DNA of 64,000 bases, from positions 1-64,000 of the forward strand of contig NZ_NFHH01000019.1 of the NCBI RefSeq assembly GCF_002161285.1. Reading direction: 5' to 3'. The translations under genes and the position numbers were made by a program. Positions 33,696 to 38,448 of this stretch are shown here, piece after piece; position 1 is the stretch's first letter, and each line of letters opens with the position of its first letter. A model generated the notes under the pieces. That model had not been told where the DNA came from. It saw only the letters and a list, made by a program, of their open reading frames with translations, and searched no databases. Origin of the DNA: Blautia sp. An81 (GTDB lineage Bacteria; Bacillota; Clostridia; Lachnospirales; Lachnospiraceae).

Positions 33696-33899
33696 TTATA
33701 GACAAGAAACAATCCGCTCCAGAATACAATGTGAGATGCAGAAACAGGTGATTCTTTTCAGTCTTTCTACATCTTCTTCTGTATAGCTCCGGTAGCTGCT
33801 GCTTTCCTCTCTTTTTGGCTTCAGCAGTCCCTTCTTTTCATAAAACCGGATATTGCCGGGGGATATCCCCGCTTTCTTTGCCGCTTCTCCTATCTTCAT
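33696..33899 (-). pseudogene. Truncated MerR-family regulator
   Basis: Only 67 aa. The first 50 residues are a good MerR helix-turn-helix (KIGEAAKKAGISPGNIRFYE, then KKGLLKP and the wing). After VERLKRI the sequence turns to unrelated ITCFCISHCILERIVSCL and stops, before the dimerisation helix that normal members of 110-140 aa need. Probably a 3'-truncated or frameshifted remnant. Its upstream region still holds a MerR-type promoter (33986-34016). A functional short protein is less likely. Confidence 0.7.
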
Positions 33900-33985: not shown

Positions 33986-34016
33986 GCTATACACCTTCTA
34001 TCAGGTGGAAGGTCAA
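33986..34016 (-). promoter_or_regulatory. MerR-type promoter with 19-bp spacer
   Basis: On the minus strand TTGACC (34011-34016), a 19-bp spacer and TATAGC (33986-33991). The spacer contains the dyad ACCTTC/GAAGGT, the hallmark of MerR-regulated promoters. It overlaps the 3' end of the GTPase-nuclease gene and reads into the truncated MerR gene. Confidence 0.65.
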
Positions 34017-36730
34017 GACTTTTTTTCTAAATCCTCGAAATTTTTTCTTCCCAGTCGGACATCTTCCATAAAATCTGTCATATGTTCCGGCAGGCTTTCA
34101 AATAGATAGCTGCCGCTTTTCTTTGTCTTTTCCAGATAATGATTTCGGATCTCCTGGTTCATCATCTGGATCTCTTCTCTCAGATTTCTGGCAGAAAGTC
34201 TGGCTGCTCCCTGCCCCATGATGATCACCTGTTCCAAAGCGTCAGAGGTAGCCACAGTTACATGGTACTTTCTTCCGATCTCATGAACTGTCTTTTCAAT
34301 ATACTGGTCGGCGGTTTCCGCCTCTTTTGTATAGACTACATAGATATTATGGTATTTCTGGACTTCTCCCTGTCCTCCTTCCACCTTATAGGCGTCAAAC
34401 ACCAGGATCAGGGTACATTTTTTGTAGCCCTGATAATTACAGAGCATGTCCATCAGTTTATTTCTGGCCCCTTCAATATTCACCTTGGCCAGTTCCTGAA
34501 GATCTTCCCAGGCAAAAATAATATTGTATCCGTCTACCAGAAGATATTCTTTCTCCGGCTCCTGTTTCTTATACCTTCTGGTCTTTTCCGGAGCTTTCTT
34601 GACTGCAAAGTCCTCTTCCTGGTTATACCTTGGTCTCTTTATAGGGCCGTAAGTACGGACAAAAATCTCCTCCAGTTCCTGCTGGGTCAGGCGGATCTCT
34701 TCAAAACTGGGAGCCGGTGCCGACTGGATCTCCATTTCCGGCTCCTCTTCCTTCCCAAATCCTGTATCGATATGGGCATACTCCTCCACCTGATCCCAGG
34801 GCACATTAAAGCCGGCTCCGTGGGAACAGAAAACAGATCCTGTAGGATTTTCCAGATCTCCTTCCGGATCATAAGCCGCCGCTTCTATGATCTCCTGACT
34901 GTTGTGACAAGGTTCATAGCCTTTCAATACAAAGGACAGATGCCCCCTTCCTCTGGTATAGGCTGTGACTTCTCTCTGATAGTCCCGCATCTCAGACACC
35001 GGAGCGGTTCCCGTAAGAAAAGCATATGCTCCCTGAATATCCGGAGTGGAAAAAGTTCCGCTCATCCGCTGGATATCGGCCATAGCCCGGCCAACCGTAT
35101 CCTGAGGCACCTCCAGGGAATATTCATAAACCGGCTCCAGAAGGATACTTTCTGCCTTTCTCAGTCCCTGGCGTACCGCCCGGTAGGTAGCCTGACGGAA
35201 ATCTCCCCCTTCCGTATGTTTCAGGTGGGCCCTTCCGGCGATCAGCGTGATCTTCATGTCTGTAATTTCCGAACCGGTAAGGACTCCCAGATGGTGTTTC
35301 TCCTCCAGATGGGTAAGGATCAGTCTCTGCCAGTTTCGGTCCAGAACATCCTCGCTGCAGTCTGCGGCAAAAACCAGTCCTGCCCCTCTCTCTAAAGGCT
35401 CCAGCAAAAGATGGACCTCCGCATAGTGACGGAGAGGTTCAAAGTGTCCGATCCCCTCTACCGGCTCTTTGATGGTTTCCTTGTATACAATATTTCCGGA
35501 GCCAAATTCCACTTCTATGCCAAAGCGCTCCAGGATCATCTGTTTCAGGATCTCAATCTGCACTTCTCCCATAACCTGGGCATGGATCTCTCCCAGTTGT
35601 TCGTTCCAGAGGATCTGAAGTTCGGGAATCTCCTCCTCCAGCTGCCGTAGTTTTATCAGCATTCCATGAACATCTGTGCCCTGGGGAAGCCGGATTTCAT
35701 AGGTCAGCACGGGAGTCAGCACCGGAGGAGCAGAAGCCGTCTCTTCCCCAAGGCCTTCTCCTGACCAGGTTTTAGTAAGACCTGTAACTGCGCAGACACA
35801 GCCGGCCCCGGCCTCTTCTACTGTCTGAAAACTCTGGCCGTCATAAATCCGGATCTGGTCCGCCTTTTCCTCCCATCCCTCTCCCGAAAGCAGCTGTTTT
35901 ACTTTCAGGCTTCCTCCGGTGATCTTCATGTGAGTCAGCCGAGTCCCCTTGTCGTCTCTGGAAATCTTGTAAACCTTGGCGCCGAATGATTCAGAATAAG
36001 AAGGACATTCCAAAAGATTCTCCAGCCCTTCCAGAAATTCCGTAATTCCCTGGGATTTCAGAGCTGAACCGAAAAAGCAGGGAAAGAGCTCCCTGTTTTT
36101 TACCATATCCCCAAGTTTCTTCTGAGAGATATTTCCTGTTTCCAGATATTCTTCCAGCGCAGGCTCCCCGCACATAGCAGCCTCTTCCAGAAATTCTTCC
36201 CGGTCTCTGTCCTGGGAAAAGTCTATGCAGTGTTCGTGGAGACGTTTCTTTAACTGGTCCAGTATCTTCTCTTTTTCTGTTCCCTCCTGATCCATTTTAT
36301 TCACAAAGAGTACTGTAGGGATCTGATACTGTTTTAAAAGTCTCCAGAGAGTCTCTACATGCCCCTGTACCCCGTCAGGACCACTGATGATCAGAATCCC
36401 GTAATCCAGCACCTGGAGGGTACGCTCCATTTCCGCAGAAAAGTCCACGTGCCCCGGAGTATCCAGCAGGGTGATCTCCTTGTCTTTCAGTTTAAAAACT
36501 GCCTGCTTTGAGAAAATCGTGATACCTCTGGCCCGCTCCATCTCATTGGTATCCAGGAAAGCGTCCTGATGATCCACTCTTCCCATCTTCCGGATACTTC
36601 CTGTATGAAACAAAAGGCTTTCCGCCAAAGTGGTCTTTCCTGCATCCACATGGGCCAGAAGGCCGATACTGATATGCTTTGAAGGAATTAAAGCCTGGTT
36701 TTTCTGTCTATTTTCAGACGTATTTTCCAT
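34013..36730 (-). CDS. TetM-like translational GTPase fused to a Rae1/YacP NYN nuclease domain
   Basis: A 905-aa protein. Residues 1 to about 650 are an EF-G/Tet(M)-type ribosomal GTPase: G1 AHVDAGKTT, G2 RARGITIF, G3 DTPGHVDF, G4 NKMD, then domains II-V. A linker contains a charged KKAPEKTRRYKKQEPEKEY stretch. Residues 728-905 match the PIN-like NYN nuclease YacP (Rae1 of Bacillus): LLVDGYNIIFAW, LVFDAYKVEGG, ETADQYIEK and VATSDALEQ supply the acidic site. Tet(M) removes tetracycline from the ribosome and Rae1 cuts mRNA in the A site, so a ribosome-directed nuclease is inferred. Tetracycline resistance is not established. Good AAAGGGG site at 36730. Confidence 0.88.
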   Translation of the reverse strand: MENTSENRQKNQALIPSKHISIGLLAHVDAGKTTLAESLLFHTGSIRKMGRVDHQDAFLDTNEMERARGITIFSKQAVFKLKDKEITLLDTPGHVDFSAEMERTLQVLDYGILIISGPDGVQGHVETLWRLLKQYQIPTVLFVNKMDQEGTEKEKILDQLKKRLHEHCIDFSQDRDREEFLEEAAMCGEPALEEYLETGNISQKKLGDMVKNRELFPCFFGSALKSQGITEFLEGLENLLECPSYSESFGAKVYKISRDDKGTRLTHMKITGGSLKVKQLLSGEGWEEKADQIRIYDGQSFQTVEEAGAGCVCAVTGLTKTWSGEGLGEETASAPPVLTPVLTYEIRLPQGTDVHGMLIKLRQLEEEIPELQILWNEQLGEIHAQVMGEVQIEILKQMILERFGIEVEFGSGNIVYKETIKEPVEGIGHFEPLRHYAEVHLLLEPLERGAGLVFAADCSEDVLDRNWQRLILTHLEEKHHLGVLTGSEITDMKITLIAGRAHLKHTEGGDFRQATYRAVRQGLRKAESILLEPVYEYSLEVPQDTVGRAMADIQRMSGTFSTPDIQGAYAFLTGTAPVSEMRDYQREVTAYTRGRGHLSFVLKGYEPCHNSQEIIEAAAYDPEGDLENPTGSVFCSHGAGFNVPWDQVEEYAHIDTGFGKEEEPEMEIQSAPAPSFEEIRLTQQELEEIFVRTYGPIKRPRYNQEEDFAVKKAPEKTRRYKKQEPEKEYLLVDGYNIIFAWEDLQELAKVNIEGARNKLMDMLCNYQGYKKCTLILVFDAYKVEGGQGEVQKYHNIYVVYTKEAETADQYIEKTVHEIGRKYHVTVATSDALEQVIIMGQGAARLSARNLREEIQMMNQEIRNHYLEKTKKSGSYLFESLPEHMTDFMEDVRLGRKNFEDLEKKS

Positions 36731-36792
36731 GAAAATACCCCTTTCTGTTCTATGATCGTGTAAATATAATCATAGCACAGAAAGGGGGATCT

Positions 36793-36810
36793 GTCGATAA
36801 AGGGTTCTTT
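36793..36810 (+). repeat. 18-bp direct repeat, left copy
   Basis: GTCGATAAAGGGTTCTTT, identical to 38449-38466. The two copies frame the single AlbA/ATPase-type gene in between. Confidence 0.85.
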
Positions 36811-36818
36811 GTATGCAA

Positions 36819-38312
36819 CTACTTCAACCTATATCTGCGCCCTTTATTTTTTCCTTCTGCTTCTATTTTTTTAAGCCGTATCAGTTCTCTCACTAATTCG
36901 CGGGTTCTTGTTTCTTTAATCCCGAGGAATTCTGCTATTTCCGCTATTCTATATTCTCTGTCCGGCTCCATCCATTCTATAATTTTTTCTAACTGTTGCC
37001 TGGTTTTACTTGTAAGTCCCTTTTTATCAGCGTTTTTTATCAACGCTTTTTTATCAGCGTTTTTTATCAGCGCTTTTTTATCTGTATTTTTTACAAATGA
37101 TAATTTCAAAATAGTTCTGTCTGGACCATACTCTTCTATAACCTCCGGTCGCCTCCATCCCTGCTGTTCCCACACACTGTAAATATCCGGTACGCCGCTG
37201 CCGGCTCTCTCGCCAATACCGATCAGATTAAACATTTTCATCAATGCTTTATTTCTGGGATCTGATATGCCGCCTTTGAGCATCTGTGCTTTTCCAGTCC
37301 GAATGCTTCCCGGATTCTCCATTACAATGGAATCTGCATCTTTCCGAATCACAATCCCTCTCGGGAAATAAAAGTCTGTATTTACGATACAATTTGCCAA
37401 AGCTTCTCTCAATGCCTTGTGTACAGGTGTATCATCTATACGTGTTATTCCCTCCAGCTTAAAAGGAATCTTCAGATCTTTCACAAGTTTCCCGTAAACC
37501 CGAAAGAAAAAATCAAAGATATTCCCTGTCCAGTCACCGGAACTGGACTGCAGCCTATCCGTCCAGCGGATTGTCGGATCGAGGACTTCCCGATAATCCA
37601 GAAAATATTCAGGAAATTCATATAAAATCTTATACTCTTCTCCAAACATAAGAAGTCCGGCAGCCGTAGGATGTAAAGTATGGTCTCTGGCAGACAGCCT
37701 TGCAGCGCCTATCCTCTCCAAATATTCTTCATCACTCAGTCTTTCCCATACATGTTCTGTTCTATAAGCCATATGCCGGTTGCGATAGGCACGCACAGTT
37801 TCTGAATTAAGCACTTCAAGAGACATATCCTGCAGAATCTTCATATCTGCTGTTTCTTCCGGTTGATCCCGGAGCATTGCAAGCACCTCGCTGCGGTCAC
37901 AGTGATAATCCCCCTCCCAGTTTCTGCGGAAAGTACCGTTAAACATGTCTCCATTTATATATACCGGCTTCTGTTCACGCTTTGCCTTAGGGACATGGAT
38001 AGCCATTATAACATGGTTGTTTTCTTCATATATCTCCAAATCATTATCCGTCAGCAGATTTACTGAAACTTTATTTTTATTATTAATTGTGTCCCAGAAG
38101 TCTTTTCTCAGTTTTGTTGCATTGTCCAGCCCAGTCATATACCAGCTGCCGTCTTTGTTTTCCTTTACACCAAGAATAATGATTCCGCCATAGCAGTTAG
38201 CAAAAGCAGAATATGTCTCCCATAACGAGTTTGGAAGGCCGCCCCTCGCCTTTTTTACTTCCCGCCGATTATCCTCTCGGTAGGAATCAAATTGGGCCAT
38301 ATCAAAATTCAT
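36819..38312 (-). CDS. AlbA_2/Schlafen-domain ATP-binding regulator-like protein
   Basis: A 497-aa protein from the ATG at 38312 (GGGGAGGG 9 nt upstream; the ORF's earlier ATG touches that site). The N-terminal AlbA_2 (divergent AAA-4) domain has ESYSAFANCYGG-like residues and IIILGVKEN; the middle GHKL-like domain reads HKALREALANCIVN. A linker carries tandem KNADKKALI units, then a winged helix (REYRIAEIAEFLGIKETRT). Such proteins are annotated as transcriptional regulators or defence-associated, but function is unproven. It lies alone between 18-bp direct repeats. Confidence 0.8.
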   Translation of the reverse strand: MNFDMAQFDSYREDNRREVKKARGGLPNSLWETYSAFANCYGGIIILGVKENKDGSWYMTGLDNATKLRKDFWDTINNKNKVSVNLLTDNDLEIYEENNHVIMAIHVPKAKREQKPVYINGDMFNGTFRRNWEGDYHCDRSEVLAMLRDQPEETADMKILQDMSLEVLNSETVRAYRNRHMAYRTEHVWERLSDEEYLERIGAARLSARDHTLHPTAAGLLMFGEEYKILYEFPEYFLDYREVLDPTIRWTDRLQSSSGDWTGNIFDFFFRVYGKLVKDLKIPFKLEGITRIDDTPVHKALREALANCIVNTDFYFPRGIVIRKDADSIVMENPGSIRTGKAQMLKGGISDPRNKALMKMFNLIGIGERAGSGVPDIYSVWEQQGWRRPEVIEEYGPDRTILKLSFVKNTDKKALIKNADKKALIKNADKKGLTSKTRQQLEKIIEWMEPDREYRIAEIAEFLGIKETRTRELVRELIRLKKIEAEGKNKGRRYRLK

Positions 38313-38448
38313 AGATTTCATCCCTCCCCATATATTTATTTAAGCACCTCTCTGTCAGTTTTCTGTCAAACCGGGTATAAGCTTCCGATCTTCTTTTATT
38401 GAATTTGTTTATGATAACAATAATAGCATAATATAAACGAAGAAATAA

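Follow-up and report, generated by a model that had tools for sequence, protein, structure and literature searches.

Architecture of the fused gene

The DNA analysed here (the window) is a stretch of 64,000 nucleotides from Blautia sp. An81 (contig NZ_NFHH01000019.1, positions 1 to 64,000), and the subject of this work is a single gene that joins a translational GTPase, through a linker, to a Rae1/YacP-type NYN nuclease. In the available passages on Bacillus subtilis, Rae1 is described as an mRNA endonuclease acting in the ribosomal A site (PMC12320835, PMC6613710). The original prediction of a full GTPase and a YacP-type NYN domain (residues 728–905) in one protein is borne out by Pfam: GTP_EFTU matches residues 18–240 (E 5.2e-52), EFG_III, EFG_IV and EFG_C (residues 530–611) are also matched, and NYN_YacP covers residues 730–892 with E 4.5e-54 and 183.3 bits against a curated cut-off of 24.6. 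EF-G_D2 is matched at 21.2 bits, under its cut-off of 27. The open reading frame (ORF) lies on the minus strand, a point on which the prediction was silent. Positions of all features are given in Table 1.

Among solved structures, the GTPase part is nearest to EF-G and Tet(O)/Tet(M) and the NYN part to YacP (5mq8/5mq9), whose crystal structures it matches by sequence at E 1.2e-26. An AlphaFold2 model, built from an alignment of 69 fused sequences (the window protein and 68 of the 79 fused loci described below), has a mean predicted local distance difference test score (pLDDT) of 85.4 and a predicted template modelling score (pTM) of 0.67, and consists of two confident bodies and a mostly disordered linker, with pLDDT below 50 at residues 662–681 and 697–723. 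Compared with Foldseek and VIA-align, the GTPase body fits EF-G best (Z 40.7), and TetM 3j9y follows at Z 32.0. The VIA-align rows cover mainly residues 13–644, so the NYN fold was assessed by sequence only.

Table 1. Features of the fused gene, its upstream region and its flanks in the window
Feature	Position	Strand	Description
Fused gene	34013–36730	−	905 amino acids (aa), ATG start; translational GTPase + Rae1/YacP NYN nuclease
GTPase part, residues 1–655	34766–36730	−	G domain 18–240, domains III, IV, V, C-terminal extension
Domain IV loop III, residues 496–511	35198–35245	−	LIAGRAHLKHTEGGDF; unlike Tet SPVSTPADF and EF-G SYHEVDSS
C-terminal extension, residues 608–653	34772–34909	−	CHN...SVFCxHGAGFxVxW...H
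Linker, residues 656–727	34550–34765	−	Mostly disordered; short helix 683–694 (ELEEIFVRTY)
Rae1/YacP NYN nuclease domain, residues 728–905 + stop codon	34013–34549	−	Catalytic acids D733, D779, D808, D830
Hairpin/inverted repeat	36735–36790	−	Arms 36735–36756 and 36769–36790
Likely ribosome-binding site	36738–36746	−	AGAAAGGGG; inside hairpin 3' arm
Promoter-like site	36769–36797	−	TCGACA-17-TATGAT; overlaps hairpin 5' arm; consensus match only
SLFN/AlbA_2 + HATPase_c_4 gene	36819–38321	−	Directly upstream of the fused gene, same reading direction
MerR-type ORF	33696–33899	−	67 aa; only the MerR N-terminal DNA-binding part

Conservation of the fusion and of its active sites

Both parts lie in a single ORF at 79 of 80 loci, these being the best 80 of at least 590 titled relatives found with the fusion itself as query, which favours fused matches. 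Hosts by title include Robinsoniella, Herbinix, Butyrivibrio, Anaerovorax odorimutans, Fusibacter, Flavonifractor and Lawsonibacter, and the closest titled relative among the matches listed is Candidatus Blautia avicola (97%). The single exception (L076), on a 3.5-kb metagenome contig, is 97% identical over residues 1–612 and ends at 614 aa; the sequence past that end has no match to the window. A frame error or chimera is ruled out by the 79 fused loci, even as drawn with a fused query, and the worry raised with the original prediction, that the parts might always be separate and the fusion a sequencing error, is thereby answered; fusion is the rule in the family.

The NYN acidic motifs, which the prediction had called complete, are intact. 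D733, N736, D779, D808 and D830 are invariant in all 106 fused and all 27 separate NYN proteins aligned, every one of which had been recruited by its match to NYN. The 106 include one sequence (L066) that is no more than the second frame of a broken gene; among the 27, one (L054) comes from a contig-cut fusion and one (L065) from an adjacent gene pair. D733 and D808 have their counterparts at positions 7 and 81 of YacP, and E812 is kept in 105 of the 106 fused proteins. Conservation of these residues across relatives, suggested as a check, is therefore what was found, and a degenerate nuclease is ruled out. The GTPase motifs are also kept, with K32 in 103/106 (three gaps) and H94 in 103/106 (two gaps, one Tyr), and residues of the linker recur as well (E685 in 100 and T693 in 92 of the 106).

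Comparison of the window with a copy from the same genus (G028) gives 42.3 synonymous and 4.7 non-synonymous changes in the NYN part, a ratio of non-synonymous to synonymous rates (dN/dS) of 0.02, and the NYN domain is therefore under purifying selection; the ratio for the GTPase part is 0.04. The synonymous rate (dS) itself is 0.05 in the GTPase and 0.55 in the NYN part, with the differences clustered at about residues 750–900 (window 34013–34500). This jump within one gene probably marks a recombination breakpoint at which the NYN end was exchanged between strains.

Relationship of the GTPase to Tet proteins and EF-G

The GTPase shares with Tet(M), Tet(O), Tet(Q) and TetB(P) an EF-G-like domain order and 28–32% identity over about 588 aligned columns. 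It nevertheless misses every tet cut-off in NCBIfam, scoring 421.6 bits against 775 for tet_protect and 261.9 against 1100 for Tet(M/W/O/S), whereas a separate true Tet(O) in the same genome scores 851.5 and 1308.1. That tet(O) gene (G000:C46:368-2287, L169) is complete, and its protein does not differ from a Tet(O) carried on a plasmid of Enterococcus faecalis. The EF-G equivalog is likewise not reached (301.1 bits against a cut-off of 659; the genome's own EF-G scores 1126.9), and identity to that EF-G is 27%. With EF-G the GTPase shares its best fold match, the factor-site GTPase motifs and a histidine position in loop III.

In a tree of 58 proteins, which includes only four Tet proteins, leaves out OtrA and is flagged by the program for long branches, Tet(M/O/Q/B(P)) form one clade (support 100/99) and all relatives of the window GTPase form another (100/99), so that the window GTPase falls outside the Tet clade, beside it. 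Within the second clade, 29 fused rows and two unfused ones (Ligilactobacillus salivarius and G042) group together (98/89), and 21 of the 23 unfused rows form a clade of their own (96/66). Label changes between fused and unfused are few, the program counting three; the tree is nonetheless consistent with a single fusion event plus rare losses. Many forks of the corresponding NYN tree are weak.

The tip of domain IV differs as well. The SPxSTPADF or SP[VA]STPADF loop III common to the four sampled Tet proteins is missing; the family typically has AHxKHTxGGDF, with H505 in 105, K504 in 103 and H502 in 102 of the 106 fused proteins. One histidine stands where EF-G has its tip histidine, presumably the functional tip residue of EF-G domain IV. 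A C-terminal extension replaces the Tet(M)/Tet(O) ending, and its cysteines and histidines (C608 in 105/106, C635 in 103/106, H637 and H653 in 102/106 each, H609 in only 85/106) might form a metal site. By sequence, the GTPase is a member of a clade beside Tet(M/O/Q/B(P)) with a different domain-IV tip, and not a Tet protein; the original description of it as TetM-like, if meant of its function, is weakened by these comparisons. Unfused GTPases of the same subfamily, 43–51% identical to the window GTPase in the three compared, lack the NYN domain and keep the HTxGGDF tip and the SVFC/SIFC...G C-terminus in nearly all rows.

Two further members of this neighbourhood were observed. An unfused subfamily member on the L. 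salivarius megaplasmid pMP118 (L219, 3983–5917) adjoins rpsN (S14) and is annotated as tetracycline resistance. An additional EF-G/Tet-like subfamily, whose loop III reads HHLEHTHPLDF, occurs in a genome with operonic rae1 (L224, G068:C12, 1831–3756).

These results bear on the proposal that the protein serves a tetracycline response or resistance, the GTPase displacing tetracycline in the manner of Tet(M) while the nuclease contributes an RNase-based mechanism. The sister-clade position, the shared fold with TetM 3j9y and a proposal in print from 2015 (PMC4342817, in the passages available) speak for it, and because Tet(M) carrying the loop III changes S508A P509A V510A can stay active, according to the accessible part of one report (PMC4750697), the loop sequence alone does not exclude it. 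The missing Tet loop III and Tet(M)/Tet(O) ending, the failed tet cut-offs and the true Tet(O) in the same genome argue against it, as does an occurrence in most family genomes with no strongly conserved neighbours, which is unlike an acquired resistance gene. A tetracycline role is on balance improbable. The annotation problem foreseen by the original prediction is real: the Agathobacter rectalis copy is listed as a 'TetM/TetW/TetO/TetS family tetracycline resistance ribosomal protection protein', and a Monoglobus copy as a 'translation factor GTPase family protein'.

Distribution in the family and the class

The genome of the window has a single YacP match, which is the fused protein. Among 250 genomes of the family (Lachnospiraceae), YacP was found in 220 and the GTPase (E <= 1e-130) in 214, each of which also has YacP; the genomes thus divide into 214 with both, none with the GTPase alone, six with YacP alone and 30 with neither. 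Two of the six are a divergent 928-aa fusion (G178) and a gene cut by a contig edge (G128), leaving four. By open frames, 13 genomes have a true stand-alone YacP (G007, G016, G020, G024, G029, G054, G059, G068, G099, G161, G202, G217 and G242), and 207 have the parts fused or side by side, including two adjacent genes in G042, a frame break in G140 and G229, and contig-end cuts in G095, G128, G173 and others. An unfused GTPase is present on another contig in nine of the 13 stand-alone genomes (the G099 copy in two ORFs). No genome with both a fused and an unfused GTPase was found among 67 examined at E <= 1e-120.

In 245 genomes of the class (Clostridia), YacP occurs in 161 and the GTPase, counted at a cut of 595 bits plus the lower-scoring fragments G386, G461 and G483, in 106 (86 clearly fused, 13 unfused, seven broken or cut). 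Both parts are present in 98 genomes and neither in 76; eight have the GTPase only and 63 YacP only. Fisher tests on this co-occurrence, in which relatedness is ignored, give very small p values.

Such counts bear on the idea of independent, co-regulated parts, according to which the GTPase has its own job (e.g. EF-G-like or in ribosome recycling) and only tethers Rae1 to the ribosome, GTP hydrolysis being irrelevant to cutting. Each part stands alone in many class genomes, the linker is long and disordered, and 102 of the 106 fused proteins have a histidine that aligns with the one at the EF-G tip; these observations would suit this idea. The absence of any GTPase without Rae1 among the 250 family genomes and the retention of an unfused GTPase in nine of the 13 genomes with separate Rae1 speak against it, and it is regarded as unlikely.

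A complete fused gene also lies on a scaffold titled 'UNVERIFIED Bacteriophage sp.' (L220, MT835514.1, 3847–6456), which is probably bacterial sequence. Since the whole fused gene sits there on an unverified faecal scaffold, the match is no evidence of a phage gene, and a phage origin was rejected as unconvincing.

The vacant rae1 operon slot and gene neighbours

Stand-alone rae1 adjoins rlmB and/or sigH at 20 of 26 loci in family and class, and the other six include a contig-cut fusion and an adjacent gene pair. In the family, rlmB is the neighbour of rae1 for ten of the 13 stand-alone genes. These ten loci all have mrnC as well, eight also have cysS, and in four sigH is the gene immediately next; they resemble the gene row cysS-mrnC-rlmB-rae1-sigH of Listeria. 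Neither rlmB nor sigH was found beside the fusion at any of 100 loci (99 intact and L076; flanks up to 8 kb). Weak matches occur near five of them, to rlmB in L088, L132 and L138 (37–50 bits), to sigH in L100 (27) and to cysS in L125 (35), and that in L132 adjoins the fused gene. Because a true rlmB beside rae1 scores 243–296 bits, these are taken as other methyltransferases or proteins.

The slot itself is empty in fused genomes. Among 12 chosen by the authors, none has rae1 within 1.5 kb of rlmB, and in ten rlmB and sigH are neighbours; in the genome of the window (L234) they are 14 bases apart with no rae1. Taken together, the operon and co-occurrence data therefore describe two states: Rae1 in the operon, often with a separate GTPase, or both parts fused elsewhere. 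The fused protein is Rae1 in a new place, outside its usual operon. It shares with Rae1/YacP of B. subtilis (5mq8/5mq9), the closest solved structure of residues 729–873, the NYN_YacP domain and all catalytic acids; the known form stands alone, is about 170 aa long and operonic, whereas here the domain follows a 655-aa GTPase and the loci vary.

The operon is also relevant to another possible role, in which a nuclease bound at the factor site would mature rRNA or tRNA or serve in quality control of the 50S subunit. The enzymes of both mrnC and rlmB act on 23S rRNA, and stand-alone rae1 is located with these genes. PMC4342817, in its accessible part, also cites a proposal that the NYN domain takes part in maturing rRNA and tRNA. 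The fusion, however, lies outside the mrnC-rlmB operon, and the passages available (PMC12320835, PMC6613710) present the B. subtilis enzyme as one that cuts mRNA in the A site. A maturation role is accordingly held to be very unlikely.

No strongly conserved neighbour gene or operon partner was found across the 100 fused loci. The largest neighbour cluster, named by eye as response-regulator-like, touches 29 of them, on both sides and both strands, and the next, likewise named by eye, is like ABC proteins and transporters. No resistance gene stands beside the fused gene among the neighbours examined, as the original prediction had stated. In the window, the MerR-type ORF is probably a remnant. 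In G028, from the same genus, the interval from the hairpin to the LysR gene lacks the SLFN/AlbA_2 gene, which is probably an insertion.

That gene has some bearing on an antiphage or abortive-infection function. An A-site nuclease could shut translation down, and in the window the fused gene has the SLFN/AlbA_2 gene immediately upstream; the fusion, on the other side, is found in most family genomes without strongly conserved neighbours, and the AlbA_2 gene is missing at the same place in G028. Judged by distribution and gene neighbours, such an effector role has scarcely any probability.

A hairpin over the likely ribosome-binding site

Directly upstream of the gene lies an inverted repeat with 22-nt arms that are 91% complementary and 12 nt apart; folded as RNA it has an energy of −29.4 kcal/mol (z-score −6.26). 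Its range is confined to near relatives: in the wide set, 6 of the 100 upstream regions have the 3'-arm motif together with an inverted repeat, and the 5'-arm pattern occurs in 17 of 61 genomes and in 14 of 20 within the genus. Of 19 matches to the 5' arm, 14 have a GTPase start downstream, two (L243, L246) have a similar gene start and three lie elsewhere.

Covariation was counted in 13 distinct sequences out of 20 matched upstream sequences, with a structure derived from one of them; left out were L031 and L084, in which the arms do not adjoin or were not seen, together with L244, L246, L250, L252 and L253 (window-alike copies). Pairing is kept in 92.5% of cells, a value as high in 1 of 500 shuffles, and falls to 45.5–55.3% in slid controls. 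Four pairs changed on both sides (10 of 500 shuffles). The cells include 14 G-U pairs after a one-sided change, six changed on both sides and 19 unpaired. The result is weakened by the number of pair types observed, which 66 of 500 shuffles reached. These data point to a covarying hairpin that covers the likely ribosome-binding site in the genus of the window.

A promoter-like site overlaps the 5' arm, so the gene's own transcript may start in the loop and leave the ribosome-binding site free. If TATGAT is a real −10 element, the 5' arm would be missing from that transcript. Read-through transcripts, by comparison, may hide the ribosome-binding site in the hairpin. Some transposase genes are protected from read-through, and the arrangement resembles theirs. 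By consensus, two promoter-like sites were found in the region, where 3.2 were expected by shuffling; the site is also present in most aligned relatives. Alternatively, the repeat could act as a DNA operator or repressor site instead of an RNA hairpin, or the hairpin could be an RNA switch.

Proposed mode of action

The explanation preferred here, with a confidence only modestly above even, is that the cell's Rae1, an mRNA endonuclease dependent on the ribosome, is here permanently joined to a ribosome-binding GTPase of its own, which delivers it for mRNA cleavage. The EF-G/Tet-like GTPase would bind 70S ribosomes at the factor site, its domain IV would reach the A site of paused ribosomes, and GTP hydrolysis would release or reposition it. 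The flexible linker of about 70 residues would hold the NYN domain at the ribosome, where it could cut the mRNA in or beside the vacated A site; the cut would start decay of the message and open the ribosome to rescue. The basis in the data is the architecture, the conserved active sites, purifying selection, the lack of an operonic rae1 in fused genomes and the co-occurrence of the parts. From these we infer GTPase delivery, the order of events and the choice of target ribosomes; A-site entry, cutting, rescue and any part in defence are ascribed to the fused protein conditionally.

Several observations weigh against this explanation. Domain IV and Rae1 would both want the A site and would therefore have to act in turn, and the model, with its low-confidence linker and pTM of 0.67, does not predict where the NYN domain sits relative to the GTPase. 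Four family genomes have a stand-alone YacP without this GTPase, namely G007, G016 (87% complete), G020 (67% complete) and G068 (only a more distant GTPase). In the class, eight of the 106 genomes with the GTPase have no YacP (six unfused, one contig fragment, one split gene), and YacP occurs without the GTPase in 63 of 245. A strict rule that the GTPase occurs only with Rae1 holds in the 250-genome family sample and fails in the class. Four class genomes (G380, G383, G448 and G488) have two YacP matches, so that fused and second copies can coexist and the exclusivity of the two states is not absolute. The genomes counted are also related, and the counts are not independent events.

A wider version of GTPase-delivered cleavage may be put forward tentatively and is doubted more than it is believed. 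The protein would be a GTP-driven, ribosome-clearing nuclease: its GTPase would single out paused or collided ribosomes, empty the A site and pass the mRNA on to Rae1, in cis when fused and in trans when separate, so that most of the family and many bacteria of the class would run Rae1 as a factor-delivered enzyme. In the genus of the window, the hairpin hiding the ribosome-binding site would in addition keep synthesis off read-through transcripts.

Relation to earlier work and significance

The fusion architecture itself is not new and has been in print since 2015, when 'Tet proteins with YacP-like NYN domain' were reported in "ten species of clostridiales" and, in the passages available, read as a resistance gene (PMC4342817). 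As described there, that fusion has the same order of GTPase and YacP-like NYN domain in the same host group, and very probably belongs to the same protein family; the window protein was matched to it by this architecture and host group, not through the ten printed sequences. It was classed there as Tet in ten species, whereas here it is assigned to a separate GTPase clade, occurs in the majority of the family genomes sampled and replaces operonic rae1. New in this work are the reclassification of the GTPase, the empty operon slot, the co-occurrence of the parts and the genus-level hairpin. No functional test of the fusion was found in the open literature, judged by titles, abstract openings and passages, with key Rae1 papers lying outside it.

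The annotation of a widespread chromosomal protein of translation and mRNA decay, listed in some records as a tetracycline-resistance gene, is corrected by this analysis. By keeping Rae1 naturally fused to a factor-site GTPase, a large group of bacteria offers a direct way to test how an endonuclease gains the A site during translation and how the cell restrains it. Most sampled members of the family carry Rae1 in this fused form and not as a protein of its own, an arrangement suggestive of an inbuilt tool for cleaving mRNAs on which ribosomes have stalled.

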